Position numbers and translations under genes: made by a program. 39,848 nucleotides of DNA, from the IMG/VR virus record IMGVR_UViG_3300044522_000425, positions 1 through 39,848 of that record, one strand, 5' to 3'. This stretch comes from a virus. The notes below the pieces were generated by a model. It searched no databases. It had not been told where the DNA came from and saw only the letters and a list, made by a program, of their open reading frames with translations. Shown piece after piece: positions 1 to 39,848 of this stretch (its first letter is position 1; each line of letters starts with the position of its first letter).

Positions 1-2089
1 CGTTGATCAGAGTGACGCTTGCCCCCTCGTTGGTGCTGTAATTGTTTACAATGACCGGAGGACGCGCGTCGGTGGACGCAGAGACCCCGAGCGCGCCATC
101 CGGCCCGCGCTTGAGCGGCATGATCGCCTCCGGACCGGCTTCGCCCATGAGCCCGGTCCCGTTGGCGAACGGGAAGATCGTCGGACCAGAGACGACCCCG
201 CCCTTGGCAAACGGCACGAACCCGCTTGGTCCGAAGACGTTGCCGTCCTCGCTGCCAATGAACTGCTTGATGCCAGCGGCGATGGGTGCGGCGAACTGCT
301 CCGCGAAGAGATCCTGCGCGACCTTGGCAAGGACGTTCGATGCGAAGTCGAGCAATGCGTCCCCGAGCGACTTCGTGCCGTCCAGAACGGAGGCGAATGC
401 GCTGTTGAGCTCGTTCTCGACGGTGTCTGCAATGCCCTGGACTAGCTGTGTGAATGGGTCGAACTTGGCGTTCAAGTCCTCAAGCGCACGAGTGTAGACC
501 TCGCCGCTGATCGCCCCGGCGCGGTAGAGCGTCTCGACCTTTTCTTGCTCGGCTGCAAATCTCTCCGCCTCGGTGCGCGTGCTCTCGTAGAGACGTTTGG
601 CCTCTTGCTGAATATCTTTCGCTGAAGATGCGCCGCCCTTCATTGTCTCGTTAAATTTGGTGATCTCCGCATTGAGCCGCGCCGTCTCTTCCGCATCGGC
701 CACGATCTGCGCTTGCAGCGTGGCCCCCTGCCCGCGCAGAATTGCATCCTCCGACCCTCGCAGCGCACCCGATGATCTGTTGAACTGTGCGGCCGCAAGC
801 GCGCCAGCCTGACCAATCGGATCCCCGGCGAACTGCAGCCGGATCGCAGCGTCTTGGCGCGCTGCGGCAGCGTTGGAAGCCGCAGAAAGCGCATTCGATG
901 CAGCCCGCCCCAGCTCGTCCGCCATCCGTGACGCCTCGGTCGCCGCAGAACTAAGAGCACCCGGAAGATCCAAGCTCTTGAGGTCAAGCCCAGCGAGCGC
1001 CGCATCGAGCAAGGCGTTGTAAAGCGCGATGCCTTGGTCGGATGCCATGCCGAGCCCGCCGGTCGTCTCGTCAATTAGCTTGGCGAGAGCCTCCGTCGCG
1101 GCGACGCGCTCTTCGGTCGTGTCGGCATCCTTGACGCGCATCATCTGGTTGACGAGGTTCGCCGCTCCCCGCTCAGTGACCCCGAATGTCGATGCAATAT
1201 TTTCCAGCGCAACCCGGTACTCACTGAGTTGTCTTAAAAGATCTTCATTCGTTGCTTTGCGAGCGTAGAGTGATACGATCTCGTCATCAAGTGCATCGAG
1301 CCTTTCCCTGCTTAGAGTAGACGCACCTGCTTCATATGTGGCTTCAGCCGTGGCGATTTGATCCCGCAGTTCTGCTTGATCGTCCAGAACTCTGTTTAGC
1401 TCCAATGCGTAGCGCAATGCGGTTGAGGAATCGAGATCGGCGAGACCCGCCCCCATCGCGACGACAACTGCCCCGGAGGCTGCGCGGAAAGCGCGGTCCG
1501 CTTCGATTTCGGCAATCTGCCTCTGGATGGCCAAGAGCTCCTGCGCGGCCGATGCTTGGGCTCCGTACTGAGCCGCGAGGTCTTGCAGGCTCTGCCCCTT
1601 CTGCGCTGCGTTGAGCCGCTGCATCGCGTCCTCAAGCGCGTCCATCTTCTCCTTGAGGTCTTCCGCAGCGTCGGCAGTGTCAAACAAGGCCGGAGCAAAG
1701 GACAGGAGCGCGCCGATCGCCACGCCAGCAATCGCGCCCAGAGCACCAAAGCCCCCGAGAAGCTGCGGAAGCTGCTGTCCGAGCAAGCGCGAAGCGTCAG
1801 TTCCCCCCTGCATCTGCACGATGATATCTGAGAGCTGAAAGCTGGCGTTCTGGATCGAGGACGCGTTATTCTTGAACGCGCTGCCGACGCGGCCCATCGC
1901 TCCAGCAATCGGACCCCCTGCGGTCGTGACCTTGCCTTGAGCGCTGGCGAGCCCGTTGAGCTGATCCTCCAGCTTGTCGGCCGAGCCCGCCGCGCCCTTT
2001 GCCGCGTTCTGGAATTGCCCGAGTTGCTGTGCGGATTGCGCCGCACCCTTGGTTTGAACCTCGACGCCAAGAGATACTATGTCAGTCAC
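1..2089 (-). CDS. Tail tape measure protein, N-terminal part (runs off the left end)
   Basis: The frame opens with GTG at 2089-2087, which overlaps the stop of the tail-chaperone extension as GTGA and has an AGGAGAGG ribosome site about 10 bases upstream. It stays open to base 1. The product starts VTDIVSLGVEVQTKGAAQ. It has an Ala/Gly-rich hydrophobic stretch about 115-140 residues in, then long helical, coiled-coil-like segments, then a Gly-rich tail region with FAKGGVVSGPTIFPF. That is the usual layout of lambda gpH/HK97-type tape measures, which set tail length and are injected with DNA. Position directly behind the chaperone pair supports this. Bases 1-112 encode a C-terminus that differs from the one at 39491-39848; joining at the shared repeat gives 736 residues. 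Confidence 0.92.
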   Translation of the reverse strand, partial: MTDIVSLGVEVQTKGAAQSAQQLGQFQNAAKGAAGSADKLEDQLNGLASAQGKVTTAGGPIAGAMGRVGSAFKNNASSIQNASFQLSDIIVQMQGGTDASRLLGQQLPQLLGGFGALGAIAGVAIGALLSFAPALFDTADAAEDLKEKMDALEDAMQRLNAAQKGQSLQDLAAQYGAQASAAQELLAIQRQIAEIEADRAFRAASGAVVVAMGAGLADLDSSTALRYALELNRVLDDQAELRDQIATAEATYEAGASTLSRERLDALDDEIVSLYARKATNEDLLRQLSEYRVALENIASTFGVTERGAANLVNQMMRVKDADTTEERVAATEALAKLIDETTGGLGMASDQGIALYNALLDAALAGLDLKSLDLPGALSSAATEASRMADELGRAASNALSAASNAAAARQDAAIRLQFAGDPIGQAGALAAAQFNRSSGALRGSEDAILRGQGATLQAQIVADAEETARLNAEITKFNETMKGGASSAKDIQQEAKRLYESTRTEAERFAAEQEKVETLYRAGAISGEVYTRALEDLNAKFDPFTQLVQGIADTVENELNSAFASVLDGTKSLGDALLDFASNVLAKVAQDLFAEQFAAPIAAGIKQFIGSEDGNVFGPSGFVPFAKGGVVSGPTIFPFANGTGLMGEAGPEAIMPLKRGPDGALGVSASTDARPPVIVNNYSTNEGASVTLIN
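113..236 (+). repeat. 124-bp direct repeat shared with the right end (left copy)
   Basis: Bases 113-236 are identical to 39725-39848. The left copy is followed by the rest of the tape-measure gene. The right copy is preceded by a complete tape-measure C-terminus. The 112 bases left of this copy do not match those left of the right copy. The repeat therefore marks where the circle closes, not a packaged terminal redundancy. Confidence 0.9.
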
Positions 2090-2427
2090 GCCTTTGCCCT
2101 CTCCTGGTGCCACAGAGCATCGAGTTCCGAGATCATGTCGACCTCGAGGGGCGTAAAGATCCGCCCGGTGAGGTGACTATACGCCAAGACCTCAGAAAAT
2201 ACTATCGGCGCGTCAGCCTGTCGTGATCGGTGCAAGCGCAGAAAAGTCGCCCAGAACTCGCCGGTCGTCTTGGGCAATGGCGGGACGTCAAGCTCATGCG
2301 GCCGGATCCCGGTCGTCTTCTCAACATGCTCGTAATGCTCGCGCAACGAGATCCCGTCCTTGTCCTTCTGCGAGAGCCGGAAGACGCCCTCGGCGTGCTT
2401 CAGGAGCTCGCCGAGGTCTCGACGAAA
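2086..2427 (-). CDS. Tail assembly chaperone, -1 frameshift extension (gpT-like part of gpGT)
   Basis: This frame has no convincing start of its own. It joins the preceding chaperone after a -1 slip at the AAATTTT heptamer (2433-2427). The fusion has 115 residues from the first frame plus 113 from this one, 228 in all. The extension includes an aromatic stretch, GEFWATFLRLHRS, and ends HQERAKA. The arrangement matches lambda gpG/gpGT: the short form coats the tape measure and the extension recruits tail-tube subunits. It lies just before the tape measure and overlaps its GTG start by four bases. A TTG at 2346 could start an 86-residue product, but the frameshift explains the whole open frame better. 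Confidence 0.85.
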   Translation of the reverse strand, partial: FRRDLGELLKHAEGVFRLSQKDKDGISLREHYEHVEKTTGIRPHELDVPPLPKTTGEFWATFLRLHRSRQADAPIVFSEVLAYSHLTGRIFTPLEVDMISELDALWHQERAKA

Positions 2428-2433
2428 AAATTT
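2388..2433 (-). promoter_or_regulatory. Programmed -1 ribosomal frameshift signal (slippery heptamer plus stem-loop)
   Basis: The minus strand reads A AAT TTT (2433-2427) in phase with the first frame (GCA AAT TTT TTC), a canonical X XXY YYZ heptamer. Ten bases downstream is a perfect 8-bp inverted repeat: CCTCGGCG (2416-2409) and CGCCGAGG (2395-2388), with a 13-base loop. The 0-frame TGA (2402-2400) sits in that loop. This is the expected slippery-site-plus-structure layout for long-tailed phages. Confidence 0.85.
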
Positions 2434-2771
2434 GCGCGGGTCGATGCTGCTGCAAAGGTGTCATCGCGCAACCACGCCGGAAACTTCGGGTATATCTCGG
2501 CGGCCTCACTCACATCCGGGCGCTTGCCCCCAGCAGTGATCGACCATCGCGCCGTGATCCTGGCGAGGAACGCGATCAGCTTCTCGGTCGGATCATCAAT
2601 GCCGAGGCGCGCCACCTCGGCGAGCGCGTTTCGATATTGCTTGGTGTCGGCCCCGTAGAGCTCAACCCATTGGGGCGACCCATCCTCGTTGGGAACGGGA
2701 GCTTTCGTGATAGGATGCAAAACCTGATATGTGTAGGTGTCGCGGAAGGTGAGGTCGTAGAGGTCCATCAT
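2400..2771 (-). CDS. Tail assembly chaperone, short form (gpG-like)
   Basis: A 123-residue protein starting MMDLYDLTFRDTYTYQVLHP. Its N-terminal beta-type region carries a phrase typical of these proteins (PITKAPVPNEDGSPQWVELYG), followed by a helical region. The last nine residues are read past the slippery heptamer and are replaced in the frameshifted form. Position before the tape measure, plus the frameshift, identifies it as a lambda gpG analogue. Unusually, it is separated from the tail tube gene by a seven-gene, lower-GC cassette (2768-4816). Its start overlaps the end of the preceding gene by four bases. Confidence 0.82.
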   Translation of the reverse strand: MMDLYDLTFRDTYTYQVLHPITKAPVPNEDGSPQWVELYGADTKQYRNALAEVARLGIDDPTEKLIAFLARITARWSITAGGKRPDVSEAAEIYPKFPAWLRDDTFAAASTRANFFVETSASS

Positions 2772-3148
2772 ATTTCCCTGTCATTCGTTGAAACCAACCC
2801 CATAGCTACAAGAGCGGATAGGCCATCCATACCACCGATAGCAGTCAGGGTTGTAGTAGATGCGCTGAGAGCCTCTGTGCTGAATACCAGAGCAGCTTGA
2901 GCACGTTCTGCGGCTACCATGTCGATCACTTCAGCAGTGTCCCAGAGAGGGCGCTGTAGGGGTGCCTGCGCGAAGATGATCCACTCGTCTCTTGCTTCAA
3001 ACGAGGCGGCTGCATAGAGGTTGCCTTGAGCGTCCACCCAGTTCAGTCCACGATAGGTTTCCCCATCAGCCTCAGAGAACCCAAGGCACATGGCATACTG
3101 GTTAGCATCAGAGACAAGGAGTTTGGGTGCTGCTGCTGTGATCCTCAT
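2768..3148 (-). CDS. Hypothetical protein of the fibre cassette (126 aa)
   Basis: Starts ATG (MRITAAAPKLLVSDANQYAM) and ends overlapping the chaperone start. No motif I recognise. Residues 1-75 look like a mixed alpha/beta domain with many aromatic residues (EWIIFAQAPLQRPLW). The C-terminal 45 residues are rich in Ala, Thr and Ser. Codon use is visibly less GC-rich than in the flanking morphogenesis genes, a trait shared with the other genes of 2768-4816. It could be a fibre-associated virion protein or an accessory gene. Function is not assigned. Confidence 0.7.
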   Translation of the reverse strand: MRITAAAPKLLVSDANQYAMCLGFSEADGETYRGLNWVDAQGNLYAAASFEARDEWIIFAQAPLQRPLWDTAEVIDMVAAERAQAALVFSTEALSASTTTLTAIGGMDGLSALVAMGLVSTNDREI

Positions 3149-3153
3149 GTGGC

Positions 3154-3354
3154 TTACTCAGCTACAACAGGAAGACTGGCGTTATAAGCAGCACGAGCAG
3201 CAGCGATACCCTCGTCAGGAGTGGGTACGGAATACTGGGCCATATACGACAGCGCAGCCATGTTCATGACCATGTCCACATAGCCCTCATCCGTGGTGAT
3301 CTCAGTGGTGGGCTGGACGTAGTCTGCTACGGTGGTGACGATATAATCAGTCAT
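3154..3354 (-). CDS. Small hypothetical protein of the fibre cassette (66 aa)
   Basis: I take the ATG at 3354 (MTDYIVTTVADYVQPTTEIT), which lies inside the last codons of the preceding small gene. A longer reading from 3423 would only add sequence that overlaps that gene. The product is acidic and Thr/Tyr/Ala-rich and ends ARAAYNASLPVVAE. No known domain is seen. It is tightly packed between two other small genes, which suggests one transcription unit with the fibre-like protein. An accessory role for the fibre is inference from position only. Confidence 0.65.
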   Translation of the reverse strand: MTDYIVTTVADYVQPTTEITTDEGYVDMVMNMAALSYMAQYSVPTPDEGIAAARAAYNASLPVVAE

Positions 3355-3505
3355 TGGTCGGCTCCTTGGCTTGAGTGGCTTCTTCCAACTTGGCGAGAAG
3401 CGTTGCGGCATCTTTGACGGCACGAAGGCCGAGGGCTTTTACACCAGCGTCCAGCAGCCCTGCGAGGGCTTGGATTTCGTGGTCGGTGAGGGTGAGGGTT
3501 GTCAT
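3347..3505 (-). CDS. Small helical protein behind the fibre-like gene (52 aa)
   Basis: ATG at 3505 follows the fibre-like gene's TAA by one base. The product starts MTTLTLTDHEIQALAGLLDA and ends EEATQAKEPTND. It looks like one amphipathic helical unit with the core GLLDAGVKALGLRAVKDAAT. Small helical proteins of this look often follow tail-fibre genes in siphophages, but their role is unknown to me. It overlaps the next gene by eight bases. Confidence 0.65.
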   Translation of the reverse strand: MTTLTLTDHEIQALAGLLDAGVKALGLRAVKDAATLLAKLEEATQAKEPTND

Positions 3506-3506
3506 G

Positions 3507-4382
3507 TTATACTCCGATTACAGTCCAGTTGGTGCCGTTGTACCAGCACAGTGCAGCAGCAGCGCCACCACCGGTTACGGTCATGCCTACCACGGGCGAT
3601 GTGGCGTCAGTAACGCGGGCCATCATGCCGACTAGCGGTGTTGCGGGAAGGGTTGCTACTGTGAGCGCGGTGGTGATTTGGACGGAGCCGACCGTATCCA
3701 ACGTGAGGCGGTTGACGTTGTTGGTCCTGAAACTAATTGGGTGGTTGTTCTCAGTGCCAAAATACGAACTACCAGAAACACTAGACCAAATCCCAGTTAC
3801 TGCTGTTAGGTTATAGATATAACCACTCAAGGCTCTGAATGTGCCGTCTGCTGTAATACGCGCTCTTGCCACACCGTTGGTAAAAAACTCAAGATCACGC
3901 GCGACATAGCCGGTCCCCAGCTTATCGGAGCCAATCTGTAGGACGTTGCTTGACCACCGCATAAACCCACGCTCATAGTTCGATACGTCTGTATAGCTGT
4001 TGTACAGGTTGAAGGCTTGGGGGTTCCCGCCGTTGCGTTGGCCGAGGGTGTTGGCTGCGTCACGGGCGAGGAAGAGGTCGAGTGTAGATAAAGACGTAGA
4101 TACTGTGTTGGTCGTCCATCCATAGTATCCGCCAACACCCGGAACACGGATGGTGCCAACTGCCGTTCCTTCAATATAGACAGCGTTATTGGCAATCTGA
4201 AGGTTACCGCTGAATGCAGTAGTGCCAGCCTTCGTCACGCTGAACTTACTACTCCCACCAACCTGCAAGTCCATCAGCAGGGAGCCAGAAGCAGATGCGG
4301 TGTCGGTGACGTTCATCTTGATGGCGGTGAAAGTGGTGCCGCTGGCGTTCCATGTGTCAGCGAGATCGTAGATATAAGCCAT
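3507..4382 (-). CDS. Tail fibre-like / receptor-binding protein (291 aa)
   Basis: Starts MAYIYDLADTWNASGTTFTA. The sequence is low in charge and rich in Gly, Thr, Ser, Asn and aromatic residues, with short beta-type repeats (SKFSVTKAGTTAFSGNLQI; ARARITADGTFRALSG). The C-terminal block (MMARVTDATSPVVG, then LCWYNGTNWTVIGV) is a common ending of phage fibre and tail-spike proteins. I read it as an extra fibre or tail decoration that binds the cell surface. Its place between the tail tube and the tail chaperones is unusual, since the main fibre gene lies at 33190-34560. Its GC content is clearly lower than that of its neighbours, which fits horizontal exchange of host-range modules. Confidence 0.8.
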   Translation of the reverse strand: MAYIYDLADTWNASGTTFTAIKMNVTDTASASGSLLMDLQVGGSSKFSVTKAGTTAFSGNLQIANNAVYIEGTAVGTIRVPGVGGYYGWTTNTVSTSLSTLDLFLARDAANTLGQRNGGNPQAFNLYNSYTDVSNYERGFMRWSSNVLQIGSDKLGTGYVARDLEFFTNGVARARITADGTFRALSGYIYNLTAVTGIWSSVSGSSYFGTENNHPISFRTNNVNRLTLDTVGSVQITTALTVATLPATPLVGMMARVTDATSPVVGMTVTGGGAAAALCWYNGTNWTVIGV

Positions 4383-4384
4383 GA

Positions 4385-4534
4385 TTAGGCCCTCCGTTCG
4401 ATAATGGAATTGGCGCGGTCAAGGATGGTATCGTTGCTGCGGGTGTAGAGTTGAACGGATGTGGCCGGGTCTACGGGGCGAGTACCAGAAAGGAGTTGCC
4501 CTCTAAGGGACACAGGAAGAGCAATAGAGGGCAT
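4385..4534 (-). CDS. Very small hypothetical protein of the fibre cassette (49 aa)
   Basis: ATG at 4534, stop TAA at 4387-4385, three bases before the fibre-like gene's ATG. The product (MPSIALPVSLRGQLLSGTRP and on to SIIERRA) has no recognisable domain. It fills the gap between the 89-residue protein and the fibre-like protein, so it may be translated for coupling or be a fibre accessory. Support is moderate and rests on spacing and continuity of the operon. Confidence 0.5.
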   Translation of the reverse strand: MPSIALPVSLRGQLLSGTRPVDPATSVQLYTRSNDTILDRANSIIERRA

Positions 4535-4546
4535 CTTACTTAATCC

Positions 4547-4816
4547 TTAGATAACCAGAGAGTGAATACCAGTAGCGGTAGTACCAGTTGCTTTGATCCG
4601 GGTCACATTGGAACACGTCACATAGAAGTTCGACGGGAAAGTTACTGTCCGATCAGTCCCATCTACCGTGAAGACTACGGCGCCGCCGACAGTCACATAG
4701 AAGCCGATGACTTGGTTTTGTGCACTGATCCCCATGTTATCCGTGCTGTTGTTGGGAGTAACCGGGATCCAGTCACGAGCCAAACCCGACGAAAGATCAA
4801 CATAATTCGCTGCCAT
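4547..4816 (-). CDS. Small beta-rich virion-like protein (89 aa)
   Basis: Begins MAANYVDLSSGLARDWIPVT. It is dominated by alternating Val/Thr/Gly (VIGFYVTVGGAVVFTVDGTD, TFPSNFYVTCSNVTRIKATG), which suggests a single compact beta-sandwich. Its position right after the tail tube gene and the low charge fit a small tail decoration or a fibre-attachment protein. No family is identified. Codon use is lower in GC than in the tail tube gene. Confidence 0.7.
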   Translation of the reverse strand: MAANYVDLSSGLARDWIPVTPNNSTDNMGISAQNQVIGFYVTVGGAVVFTVDGTDRTVTFPSNFYVTCSNVTRIKATGTTATGIHSLVI

Positions 4817-4831
4817 TTTTTCCCCCTATAA

Positions 4832-5740
4832 TCAGACGGTTCTGGTGATCCGGAGTTGCGTTCCGGTCGTGCTGTCGCGCAAAGCGACGAACGGCAGCGT
4901 GATAAGGCGAGACGCCGGACTTCCGACCGGGACTGCCGCGCCGTTGATCTTGATCCTTGGCATGAGAAGCGTGTAGCCCAGACCGGCAACGCGGTCGTCA
5001 AGGACAATCTGCAGCGAGCTCTCGGTCTCGTTCAGAAACTTGTTGATGAGGACGGCGTCTTGATAGAAGACCGTCATCGTCCCCTCGAGCGTCGACATCC
5101 CGAACTCCATCTGCGGCGTCTGGACTGCGCCAAGAACGAAAATCGGGTTCAAGTTGTTGTTGAGCGTAAAGTCGATCGAGTTGACAAAGGCGATCGCGGA
5201 TCCGCCCTCGGTGATCGCTCCGGAGAAACTGTCGAAGGGCTCGTTGTTCGATGCGGCAGTCAAGCTCGCGTCGAGTGGGGTCGCGCTTTGCGTGATGTTC
5301 CGGCCAATGATCCCGAAGGTCGCGGTTGTCATCTGGTTCGGCGCGATCGACATCTGCATCGTGTTGACCATGCAGCCCGTGAAGGCGCGATACTGCGTGA
5401 CGTCCAGCGCGCCGTCCTCGACGGTGAACGATTTCACGGTCGTGCCTGTGTTCAGAATATTCGATGTGAAGGCCCCGAACAGCGCACCCTCAAGCAGCCA
5501 ATCGTAATCGGCCGGACGCATCTCGACGGCGATGTCGCCGGTGACGGTGCGCTGTCCGTGACGATCAATGCGCGGCATTCGATCTGCCGTGATCTGAGCC
5601 GACTGCACGCGCGTCTTGGTGAGGTCAAGCGAGTGCGTGACGAACGGGATCTCAACCATCGCCGGCGTTGCCGGTGTGGTGCCATAAGTGCTCTCCGCGA
5701 TATAGGCGAGCTGAGTTCTGGAGCCCTGTGCAAACGGCAT
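4832..5740 (-). CDS. Major tail tube protein
   Basis: A 302-residue protein starting MPFAQGSRTQLAYIAESTYG. The N-terminal phrase (AYIAESTYGTTPATPAM) and the following beta-rich body, with TVTGDIAVEMRPADYDWLLE, are typical of siphophage tail tube proteins that polymerise into hexameric rings around the tape measure. A C-terminal part includes ITEGGSAIAFVNSIDFTLN. Length and position after the tail terminator support this. The assignment to the general phage tail tube group is from recall of family style; the exact subfamily is not certain. Confidence 0.85.
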   Translation of the reverse strand: MPFAQGSRTQLAYIAESTYGTTPATPAMVEIPFVTHSLDLTKTRVQSAQITADRMPRIDRHGQRTVTGDIAVEMRPADYDWLLEGALFGAFTSNILNTGTTVKSFTVEDGALDVTQYRAFTGCMVNTMQMSIAPNQMTTATFGIIGRNITQSATPLDASLTAASNNEPFDSFSGAITEGGSAIAFVNSIDFTLNNNLNPIFVLGAVQTPQMEFGMSTLEGTMTVFYQDAVLINKFLNETESSLQIVLDDRVAGLGYTLLMPRIKINGAAVPVGSPASRLITLPFVALRDSTTGTQLRITRTV

Positions 5741-17947: not shown

Positions 17948-18282
17948 GCGCATGTGCTGCCACCAAACGCAGGCAACGCGACCTGCACCCATTCCGTTTT
18001 GTCAGATGCTTCAACGCTGTAAGATTTCTGGCACAAGGCTATCGCCATCTCCGCTGCCAACCGATGCGCCTTGGCCCACAAGGCTTGGGGCGTTGATGGG
18101 AAACGCGGGTAATGGATCAGCGTTGCCATAACGCCGGATTCTTCCCCGCCGCTGTAGATGAAATCGGCGCGTGTCAGAGCAAAACATGCGCCTTCATTGG
18201 CACAGAATTGCCTGACAACGCGGCGGGCATCGTCATAATCGCCCGCCATCCAAATCCGCACTGTGTAGCTTTCGACTGTCAT
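17944..18282 (-). CDS. Hypothetical protein (112 aa)
   Basis: The ATG at 18282 overlaps the previous stop as ATGA; GTG at 18291 would add three residues. Product MTVESYTVRIWMAGDYDDAR, then VVRQFCANEGACFALTRADF and GGEESGVMATLIHYPRFPST. The N-terminal part, with strand-helix-strand and 'G....a..i.r.fc...G.Cvt', looks like a small alpha/beta domain. I recall similar small proteins in phages beside PAPS-reductase-like genes, but no function is known. Confidence 0.65.
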   Translation of the reverse strand: MTVESYTVRIWMAGDYDDARRVVRQFCANEGACFALTRADFIYSGGEESGVMATLIHYPRFPSTPQALWAKAHRLAAEMAIALCQKSYSVEASDKTEWVQVALPAFGGSTCA

Positions 18283-19133
18283 GCCATGCACTCCCCATCA
18301 TTGGCTTGGCAAAGGACGCCTTCTGTGGTCAGCGCCCAATCACCTTGGCGACCCATAAAGTCCCTCAGTTCGGCGCGGCTATAGCGGCGGGAAAAGCGCC
18401 CATCATCTGTGCGCAATCTCCCCTTGGCGACAGACGCCGCCGAAACAAAATCCTCCATGCGCTCCCACCACGCTGCGCGCTCTGGATATTCGCGGGTGAA
18501 GGCTGCAACGTGGGCTTCGCTTTTAAGAAAGCACCCGTCACAGTTTCCAAGCCAGCAGTTGCCGCCCACATTCGGCAAGTTCAGGTCAAACGGTTGCGCC
18601 CGCCAAAATTCTGCAACGTGATGCCTGCCGACGCCTGCCGTTGCCAGTGGATTCCACACTGTCCAGCGCTCCGGCGGTGCAGGCTTGTTCAGGCGGTGCG
18701 GCTCATCGGCCCGCAGGCCCACGCAATTCGTCCAATGTTGCCAGCCAAGGGACATCAGGTAACGCTTGGCCGTCCTGATTTTCAACTCGATGGTGCAAAA
18801 TCGGGTTTGCTGATTGGGCAGATATTGCTTTTTGCGGATCATCGCCTCGAAAGGCTCGCCATTCCGTGCCGCGCTGTTGTGGCTGACAATCTGGAAATGC
18901 GGGGCTTCCGGCAGATACTCCAACCACGCAATCGCCACACCCCACCGCGCGCCGACCTCGGCCACGAAGTCCAGCGTTTGCGGCATTTCCCGCCCGGTGT
19001 TTTGAAATGTGACCACCGCCCGATCAGGCAACCCGCCGTTGGCGTCCAAGATTTGCCGCAAGAGGTAAGCCGACGTGCGCCCGCCGCTGAATGAGATTTG
19101 CACGTTTCCATCCGGTAGGGTGTAACAAGTCAT
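18279..19133 (-). CDS. PAPS-reductase-family PP-loop protein
   Basis: 284 residues. The PP-loop is QISFSGGRTSAYLL, with SGGRTS at 16-21. RFCTIELKIR has Cys113, and GNCWLGNCDGCFLKSE has Cys193, 198 and 201, so four cysteines could hold an iron-sulphur cluster or zinc. This is the phosphoadenosine-phosphosulphate-reductase-like family common in phages and related to CysH and DndC. The family adenylates or uses a sulphur nucleotide; the phage substrate is unknown. It follows a Dam-type methylase by ATGA overlap, which suggests joint work on nucleic acid or nucleotide modification. That link is inference. Confidence 0.8.
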   Translation of the reverse strand: MTCYTLPDGNVQISFSGGRTSAYLLRQILDANGGLPDRAVVTFQNTGREMPQTLDFVAEVGARWGVAIAWLEYLPEAPHFQIVSHNSAARNGEPFEAMIRKKQYLPNQQTRFCTIELKIRTAKRYLMSLGWQHWTNCVGLRADEPHRLNKPAPPERWTVWNPLATAGVGRHHVAEFWRAQPFDLNLPNVGGNCWLGNCDGCFLKSEAHVAAFTREYPERAAWWERMEDFVSAASVAKGRLRTDDGRFSRRYSRAELRDFMGRQGDWALTTEGVLCQANDGECMA

Positions 19134-27082: not shown

Positions 27083-27429
27083 GCACGACAGTCATGATGC
27101 ACGCGGCAGGTTCCCCCGTTGCGAAGATGGCGAATGAGGCAACGACGTGGTTGCACTTCCCGACCGAGTGCGGCGGGTACGTCGCCATTTTTATGCCGAT
27201 GCACGTCGCCGAGGCTATGGTTGCGGCCTTCAACGAGGCATCCGTTCCCGGCTATGACGCCCTGATCGGATTCGTCGAGGAGGTCCGCGACCACAAGCCC
27301 GAGGTCATCAGCGGACGCCGCCGCGACCCGCAGGACGACACCGACGACCTGATGCCGCTGCCCGAGTTCGAGGCATTCCAGGCGGATGCTGAGAAGTTGG
27401 TAGGCAAGAAGCGGAAGGTGGCGGCATGA
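27079..27429 (+). CDS. Early hypothetical protein (116 aa)
   Basis: The ATG at 27079 overlaps the previous stop. MSTTVMMHAAGSPVAKMANE, then TTWLHFPTECGGYVAIFMPM, VAEAMVAAFNEASVPGYDAL, an acidic stretch with RRRDPQDDTDDLMPLPEFEA, and a basic end VGKKRKVAA. No known domain. The pattern suggests a small globular fold followed by a charged tail. Confidence 0.65.
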   Translation: MSTTVMMHAAGSPVAKMANEATTWLHFPTECGGYVAIFMPMHVAEAMVAAFNEASVPGYDALIGFVEEVRDHKPEVISGRRRDPQDDTDDLMPLPEFEAFQADAEKLVGKKRKVAA

Positions 27430-28247
27430 AATTCAACATTTTAAACCGCTGGTCTGGCGCAGTTCAATTCACTGCCGAAATTGACTGCGATGATGACGCG
27501 CCGACTTCCGTGAAAACCGGCCTTGCGGTCCGGTGGGCCGTGAAAAACGGTGCCAGTCTTGTTGGTGCCCGTTTTGACCGTGCCAGCTTTGTCGGTGCCA
27601 GCCTTGTCGGTGCCAGCCTTGACGGTGTTCGTCTTGATGGTGCCAGCCTTGACGGTGTTCGTCTTGATGGTGCCAGTCTTGTTGGTGCCCGTTTTGATGG
27701 TGCCAGCCTTGTTGGTGCCAGCATTGACCGTGCCAGCCTTGACCGTGCTCGTTTTGTCGGTGCCCGCCTTGACGGTGCCAGCTTTGTCGGTGCCAGCCTT
27801 GTTCGTGTCCGTCTTGACGGTGCCCGCCTTGTCGGTGCCCGTTTTGTCGGTGTTTGTTTTGACGGTGCCAGCCTTGTTGGTGCTAGTCTTGACCGTGCCA
27901 GCTTTGTCGGTGCCAGTCTTGTCGGTGTCAGTCTTGACCGTGCCAGCATTGACCGTGCCAGTTTTGTCGGTGCCCGCCTTGTCGGTGCCAGCCTTGTCGG
28001 TGCCAGCGGCATCAATGACTGGATCAAGTGCATCCAGGTTGACACATACCCGATCACTTACACCGCCGATGTGATGCAGATCGGCTGTCAGCGGCATTCT
28101 CTGGCCGATTGGGCGGCATTCTCTGACGCTCAAATCCGCGCAATGGACGGGGCAAAAGCCTTGGCTTGGTGGTCAAAACATAAGGCATGGCTATTCGCCA
28201 CGATTGAACTTTGCCCCGCGAAACCGACGATTGAGGTGAAGCCATGA
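27426..28247 (+). CDS. Pentapeptide-repeat protein
   Basis: 273 residues. The first 40 (MKFNILNRWSGAVQFTAEID on) form a small N-terminal cap. Residues about 42-195 are some 30 pentapeptides of type A-S/R-L/F-V/D-G/R, which should fold as a right-handed square beta-helix. A C-terminal domain follows: WIKCIQVDTYPITYTADVMQ, IGCQRHSLADWAAFSDAQIR, and AWWSKHKAWLF. Pentapeptide proteins such as MfpA and Qnr mimic DNA and bind gyrase, so a gyrase or defence target is possible, but many have no known role. The C-terminal part recurs in phage pentapeptide proteins. Confidence 0.88.
   Translation: MKFNILNRWSGAVQFTAEIDCDDDAPTSVKTGLAVRWAVKNGASLVGARFDRASFVGASLVGASLDGVRLDGASLDGVRLDGASLVGARFDGASLVGASIDRASLDRARFVGARLDGASFVGASLVRVRLDGARLVGARFVGVCFDGASLVGASLDRASFVGASLVGVSLDRASIDRASFVGARLVGASLVGASGINDWIKCIQVDTYPITYTADVMQIGCQRHSLADWAAFSDAQIRAMDGAKALAWWSKHKAWLFATIELCPAKPTIEVKP
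27549..28010 (+). repeat. 15-base tandem repeat coding the pentapeptides (about 31 units)
   Basis: Units resemble GGTGCCAGCCTTGTC, varying mainly at GAC/GTC, AGC/CGC and CTT/TTT. Near-identity at third positions shows recent expansion or ongoing conversion. A repeat this uniform is likely to change length by slippage. Confidence 0.9.
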
Positions 28248-39490: not shown

Positions 39491-39848
39491 TTAACCTCTC
39501 TGCTGCAAGCGGTTGCCGAGCCCGAACGTCGTCCGGATCGCTCGGTAGGTCGGCCCGCCGGAGGTGATGTCCTGCGCTATGGCGCGCCCGATTTCGACGA
39601 CGATGTTGCCGGCGCTGTCGGTTGAGGATGTCGCCTCCTGCCCGCTGTAGTTGTTGATCGTGATGTTCGGCGCGCTGTTGCCGTTCGCTGCGACCACGCC
39701 GAGCTTGCCGTCAGATCCCCGGGAGAGCGGCATGATCGCCTCCGGACCGGCTTCGCCCATGAGCCCGGTCCCGTTGGCGAACGGGAAGATCGTCGGACCA
39801 GAGACGACCCCGCCCTTGGCAAACGGCACGAACCCGCTTGGTCCGAAG
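39491..39848 (-). CDS. Tail tape measure protein, C-terminal part (continues across the join)
   Basis: Open to base 39848, stop TAA-proximal at 39491. Starts in the shared repeat (FGPSGFVPFAKGGVVSGP) and continues LMGEAGPEAIMPLSRGSDGK, then INNYSGQEATSSTDSAGN and IGRAIAQDITSGGPTYRAIR, ending LQQRG. Frame is in phase with the gene at 1-2089 when the repeats are merged (2211 bases). After the merge this is the last 119 residues of a 736-residue protein. Confidence 0.9.
   Translation of the reverse strand, partial: FGPSGFVPFAKGGVVSGPTIFPFANGTGLMGEAGPEAIMPLSRGSDGKLGVVAANGNSAPNITINNYSGQEATSSTDSAGNIVVEIGRAIAQDITSGGPTYRAIRTTFGLGNRLQQRG
39725..39848 (+). repeat. 124-bp direct repeat shared with the left end (right copy)
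   Basis: Identical to 113-236. Ends exactly at the contig end. This copy is continuous with the complete tape-measure C-terminus and the distal tail genes, so the circle closes here. Confidence 0.9.

Follow-up and report, generated by a model that had tools for sequence, protein, structure and literature searches.

Two overlapping reading frames in front of a viral tape measure gene raise the question of whether a tail assembly chaperone is made in a short and an extended form through a −1 ribosomal frameshift and, if so, on which slippery heptamer ribosomes would slip and what the adjacent hairpin would contribute. This question was studied in the window, the whole stretch of DNA analysed, a record of 39,848 bases. 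An earlier sequence-only reading had proposed a −1 frameshift of the gpG/gpGT type at this locus. That proposal is well supported by the assignment of the −1-frame product (T) to PF23812, by the gene order, by a switch in the constrained frame and by a conserved heptamer. We consider it very probable that the tail-chaperone gene undergoes a programmed −1 ribosomal frameshift of the lambda gpG/gpGT type, and that it does so on U UUU UUC.

Organization of the tail locus

The head and tail genes of the window are located on the minus strand, as are all the elements of the proposed cassette (Table 1), for which the sequence-only reading had given correct coordinates while leaving the strand unstated. 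The 0-frame product (G) is encoded between a phrog_290 protein of tail-tube type and the tape measure protein, which is the position of gpG/gpGT-type pairs. Because homologues begin MDLYDL, the start of G is probably the second ATG (2768), and translation of the fusion (GT) from this codon gives a product of 227 aa, for which a size of approximately 25 kDa would be expected. The TGA of T (2088-2086) overlaps the GTG of the tape measure gene (2089) as GTGA.

Table 1. Position of structural genes and of the elements of the proposed frameshift cassette in the window
Feature	Position	Strand	Remarks
Terminase	16633-15167	(-)	
Portal	15167-13806	(-)	
Major head protein	8723-7731	(-)	
Tail terminator	6175-5756	(-)	
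Upstream tail protein	4832..5740	(-)	phrog_290; relatives at the same position annotated as major tail or tail tube protein
G, tail assembly chaperone, 0-frame product	2400..2768	(-)	122 aa; 123 aa from ATG 2771
A AAT TTT	2427..2433	(-)	in phase; heptamer of the sequence-only reading; 11/35 close sequences
T TTT TTC	2424..2430	(-)	in phase; most likely shift site; 35/35 close sequences
Spacer between T TTT TTC and stem	2417..2423	(-)	7 nt
Stem-loop	2388..2416	(-)	arms 2416-2409 and 2395-2388; loop 2408-2396
0-frame TGA of G	2400..2402	(-)	inside the hairpin loop
T, −1-frame extension	2086..2430	(-)	114 codons plus stop; PF23812 match
Tape measure protein	2..2089	(-)	GTG start; leaves the window at the window start

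The tape measure ORF matches phrog_1716 and phrog_1538, both tape measure families, and its C-terminal part resembles RcGTA_tape NF058675 with an E value of 5e-30 that remains below the cut-off of that model. Between the phrog_290 tail protein and G there is a region of approximately 2 kb (2768-4816) with four small minus-strand ORFs, unlike the arrangement in CRP-6 and other relatives, where G directly follows the tail protein. An ORF of 291 aa in this region (4382-3507) reads as fibre- or decoration-like and has no family match.

Coding capacity of the two frames

The −1 frame is open from nucleotide 311 of G to the stop of T. The sequence-only reading had described this frame as open and ending at the tape measure start, which is correct; the length of 113 residues given there has to be replaced by 114 codons when counting from the T run. 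The product of this frame matches Pfam PF23812 (Phage_TAC_18) with an E value of 2.3e-12 and 47.3 bits against a cut-off of 27, indicating that the −1 frame encodes a protein domain and is not an accident. The AlphaFold model of T was of moderate quality (pLDDT 73) and gave weak matches to viral structures, some of them named tape measure chaperone; one weak structural match to this model is a protein of Escherichia phage Seurat, a tape measure chaperone of 268 aa.

Relatives of G were recovered at the profile level. A G profile matched the G proteins of twelve distant phages end to end (hhalign probability 96.8, E value 2.7e-10), with its FF residues aligned with theirs, and some of these proteins are annotated as tail assembly chaperones. 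G alone had no relative in a tblastn search of 50,697 phage records, where T does match; comparison with Pfam and NCBIfam gave no match for G, comparison with PHROGs a chance-level match only, and a profile search of PDB sequences no relevant match. For G, AlphaFold gave a model of low quality (mean pLDDT 51).

The distribution of variable columns in the alignment of homologues changes along the gene. Before the slip site, these columns fall on the third positions of frame 0 (87 of 175), and after the G stop they fall on the third positions of frame −1 (80 of 148).

Identification of the most likely slip site

The end of G reads GCA AAT TTT TTC GTC GAG ACC TCG GCG AGC TCC TGA on the minus strand. 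The heptamer A AAT TTT of the sequence-only reading is indeed in phase within GCA AAT TTT TTC, and three bases past it lies a second, overlapping in-phase heptamer, T TTT TTC, that had been missed. In-phase heptamers of the type X XXY YYZ (Y being A or T) occur six times in 7,077 minus-strand codons, and two of these six are at the end of G. Within the close set, formed by 34 homologous viral loci (61-99% G identity) and the window itself, T TTT TTC is present in every one of the 35 sequences and A AAT TTT in 11 of them, with the remaining 24 carrying GCC AAT TTT TTC or GCT AAT TTT TTC instead. In four sequences with GCT AAT TTT TTC (L066, L068, L073 and L074) the −1 frame has a TAA directly before the T run, so that entry into this frame is only possible at the run. 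Codon usage shows the same region as constrained: 17 of 20 two-fold codons for invariant G residues vary at the third base in 24 sequences, and the only invariant two-fold codons in G across these homologues are AAT, TTT and TTC at the slip. In the phage of the window, AAT (20%) and TTT (30%) are minority codons.

On the basis of its conservation in relatives, T TTT TTC (U UUU UUC in the mRNA) is most likely the slip site in the clade, and the former assignment of the site to AAATTTT is not sustained, this heptamer having been lost in most close sequences. Nevertheless, A AAT TTT may contribute to the shift in the window, because both heptamers belong to an efficient class in E. coli, where Sharma et al. 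found the H_HH.U_UU.Y motifs, including U UUU UUC and A AAU UUU, among the most efficient (PMC4066793).

It appears unlikely that most of the shifting takes place at A AAT TTT, which would place tRNA-Asn in the P site next to tRNA-Phe in the A site. This heptamer is in phase, conforms to the efficient A_AA.U_UU.U class in E. coli (PMC4066793) and occurs in place of TTTTTTC in 13 of 85 loci of the wider family, among them Bradyrhizobium phage ppBdUSDA122-1, and two overlapping sites could both work; however, it is missing from the 24 close sequences with GCC or GCT before AAT and, as judged from decoding rules, re-pairing of tRNA-Asn from AAU to AAA would require a G.A contact in third position, whereas either U codon allows tRNA-Phe to pair correctly again. 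Slippage at either heptamer results in an identical GT protein with the junction RANFFRRDL, and so does the addition of one U, so the junction peptide would prove the fusion and not its site or mechanism. Altogether, as judged by comparison with its relatives, the gene is encoded in two frames, with the switch at the slip, T TTT TTC conserved and T belonging to the Phage_TAC_18 family.

In one relative, L114, the arrangement at ~1195-1207 is more extended: AAATTTTTTTTTC contains three in-phase heptamers that overlap, and its nine consecutive Ts are sufficient for polymerase slippage to be considered.

Hairpin and stop codon of G

The hairpin is exactly as first described: a perfect 8-bp stem (CCTCGGCG and CGCCGAGG) starts 10 nt past AAATTTT, i.e. 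7 nt past TTTTTTC, and the loop includes the 0-frame TGA. This loop has 13 nt, AGCTCCTGAAGCA, and allows an inner 3-bp GCT/AGC helix across one A.A mismatch. Of 728 positions sampled, 3 (0.4%) have a perfect stem of at least 8 bp at the same spacing. When the T peptide of the window was recoded synonymously, an 8-bp stem, with G-U pairs allowed, arose in 10.7% of cases, and the stem alone is therefore weaker evidence than it appears. Conservation of the stem pairs, suggested along with the original proposal as a check, gave a mixed result: almost every clade sequence retains the core pairs, and their changes are one-sided changes to G-U, with no compensatory, two-sided change in the core. One flanking pair varies between C-G and G-C in the clade and is A.G in the window. 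Furthermore, when nine clade members were compared with their synonymous recodings, the 45 nt after the slip folded better in eight of them (z from -1.9 to -2.8); for L060 the value was -0.9.

Most distant relatives lack the hairpin. No stable hairpin is present in CAjan, JenP2 and VLCpiS6a, and CAjan and JenP2 have no equivalent of the one in the window; V45iii and Almagne are more folded than their recodings, but into other structures, and some distant relatives are less folded. A search for a pseudoknot between the loop and the downstream sequence revealed complements of only 4 nt (GAAG/CTTC and TCCT/AGGA), inspection by eye of the 6-17 nt upstream of the slip revealed no Shine-Dalgarno-like stimulator, and no Rfam match or tRNA gene was found. 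The hairpin is probably a clade-specific stimulator.

The position of the stop had been taken in the sequence-only reading as a sign of an unusual coupling between termination and structure, a claim that finds no support beyond the clade. Clade members have 18 or 21 nt between T TTT TTC and the 0-frame stop, which is inside or at the edge of the loop, while in the TTTTTTC loci of the wider family the stop lies 0 to 102 nt past the slip and the hairpin is mostly missing. The mean distance from slip to stop is 26 nt in the PRFect training set and 36 nt in the Xu phages (PMC10885494). We read the stop in the loop as a local feature of the clade, a consequence of having the stop about 20 nt downstream, which is a usual distance, since some 20-30 nt between slip and stop are common in genes of this type.

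Two readings give the loop-borne stop a more active role. According to one of them, A AAU UUU UUC would act as two overlapping slip sites, and the loop stop and the hairpin would jointly tune the G:GT ratio of the clade, for example if a ribosome terminating in the loop left the hairpin open for the next one; we regard this as highly unlikely. Slightly less probable again is a mechanistic coupling in which termination in the loop and unfolding of the stem jointly set the ratio: the position of the clade stops is in line with it, but the scattered stops of the wider family and the lack of a stable hairpin in CAjan, JenP2 and VLCpiS6a argue against it, and a slipped ribosome never decodes the 0-frame stop.

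Slippery heptamers in the Phage_TAC_18 family

The T of the window is similar to the T of 66 phage records, and that of Baskent_P4_1 to the T of 180. Among 85 distinct loci of the wider family, which were gathered by similarity to a few of themselves and are not independent draws, 40 have T TTT TTC in phase, and in 39 of these 40 the heptamer coincides precisely with the residue at which the T match begins. CAjan, JenP2, Donnerlittchen and Baskent_P4_1 resemble the window in their T domain, which shows 30-40% identity, and in a T TTT TTC that coincides with the first residue of T; their 0-frame stop lies elsewhere. Besides the 13 loci with A AAT TTT, other heptamers were found, namely A AAA AAG (10 loci), G GGA AAG/C (7) and T TTT TTT/G (4), and the scan detected no X XXY YYZ heptamer in the remaining 11, which include a G GAT TTT group with CRP-6. 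TTTTTTC, AAATTTT, AAAAAAG and GGGAAAG/C replace one another at a single family boundary.

In CRP-6 and its relatives (L082, L161, L165, L166, L169 and L182), G GAT TTT, which is not of the X XXY YYZ type, is found at the homologous boundary. If a shift takes place at G GAT TTT in this group, the motif would be outside the X XXY YYZ rule.

Slippage of RNA polymerase on the run of six Ts, adding one U so that the mRNA would encode GT, is a remote alternative to ribosomal slippage. Homopolymer runs can slip, and an added U leads to exactly the same GT protein. On the other side, six Ts are a short run for polymerase slippage, and other family members have AAAAAAG, GGGAAAG or GGGAAAC at the same boundary, which are ribosomal heptamers and not long runs.

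With regard to the start of T, conservation in its frame begins at the T run, ahead of any start codon, and T homology with distant phages starts at the slip residue. Translation of the second frame from its own start only, a possibility raised with the original proposal, is not in agreement with the homologues, which share no start codon within the first 60 T codons. Least probable among the alternatives is that T is made separately, with no fusion: in most relatives gene callers do treat T as an ORF of its own that starts internally, and T codon 29 of the window is a TTG, but this TTG is common to only 2 of the 23 other sequences, and separate translation is very unlikely to judge from the sequences compared, because the constrained frame changes at the slip and no start codon of T is conserved.

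Proposed mechanism and comparison with known systems

For the programmed −1 shift on U UUU UUC, we infer its occurrence, its rate, the role of the hairpin and the binding partners of G and GT. Most ribosomes would translate G in frame 0 and terminate at the TGA of the hairpin loop. A smaller fraction, carrying tRNA-Phe in the P as well as the A site on U UUU UUC, would move back one base, re-pair on UUU UUU and go on to produce GT, whose C-terminal T half would be the Phage_TAC_18 domain. The GC-rich hairpin located 7 nt downstream probably raises the rate of the shift. By analogy with lambda, G might coat the tape measure protein and GT might recruit the tail-tube protein.

The lambda gpG/gpGT tail assembly chaperones are reportedly the subject of work by Levin in 1993 and Xu in 2004 and 2013. 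Mature lambda virions contain neither G nor GT. As in the window, the lambda genes encode in order a tail protein, G, the −1-frame T and the tape measure protein, and, as proposed here, a short and an extended product are made from one start through a low-frequency −1 shift near the end of G (PMC5009743). In lambda, the partner of G is the tape measure protein and that of the T half the tail-tube protein, and the proportion of the two products is important (PMC5009743). The window differs from lambda in having U UUU UUC, not G GGA AAG, and a T of the Phage_TAC_18 family. In phage TP901-1, blocking the shift resulted in tail-less capsids, and forcing a permanent fusion resulted in intact-looking, non-infectious particles (PMC4493119).

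A −1 shift at UUUUUUC has been predicted for the 17.5/17.5* pair of SPP1 (PMC6316719). This pair is likened to that of the window by its heptamer and by the position of the tail chaperone gene upstream of the tape measure gene; a point of difference is that SPP1 is a phage of a Gram-positive host. SPP1 was the only case found when a literature collection with few subscription papers was searched for TTTTTTC in connection with frameshifting and tail assembly. The Caulobacter phages phiCbK (AAAAAAC) and Colossus (GGGAAAC) have chaperones encoded before the tape measure gene (PMC3556154), which are likened to those of the window by their two-product arrangement and have different heptamers.

The gene arrangement, the heptamer class (from SPP1) and the T family were already known, and the system is ordinary phage biology. 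To this, the sequence comparison adds a likely slip site for the clade, together with a rule for Phage_TAC_18 phages, whose T half starts at the site of the slip, in most cases U UUU UUC. Most of the records examined either leave T unannotated or list it as a hypothetical protein of its own, whose internal start is probably incorrect; the rule is usable for annotation and would allow the fusion to be annotated in the 180 phage records found.

Other features of the window

The last 124 bases of the window (39725-39848) are an exact repeat of positions 113-236, in frame within the tape measure gene. When the pair is extended to 153 nt (84-236 and 39696-39848), it shows 11 mismatches, all in the first 29 bases. 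The record probably represents an almost complete genome, circular or permuted, that was cut within the tape measure gene, with the first 112 bases being probably variant or misassembled.

On the strand opposite to the structural genes, an ORF of 273 aa (27426-28247, plus strand) contains about at least 26 copies of a 15-nt repeat and is pentapeptide-repeat-like, with an ASLVG/ARFDG pattern. In addition, a phosphoadenosine phosphosulfate reductase-like gene, a type of auxiliary metabolic gene, is found on the minus strand at 18279-19133 (phrog_424, E value 5.6e-47).
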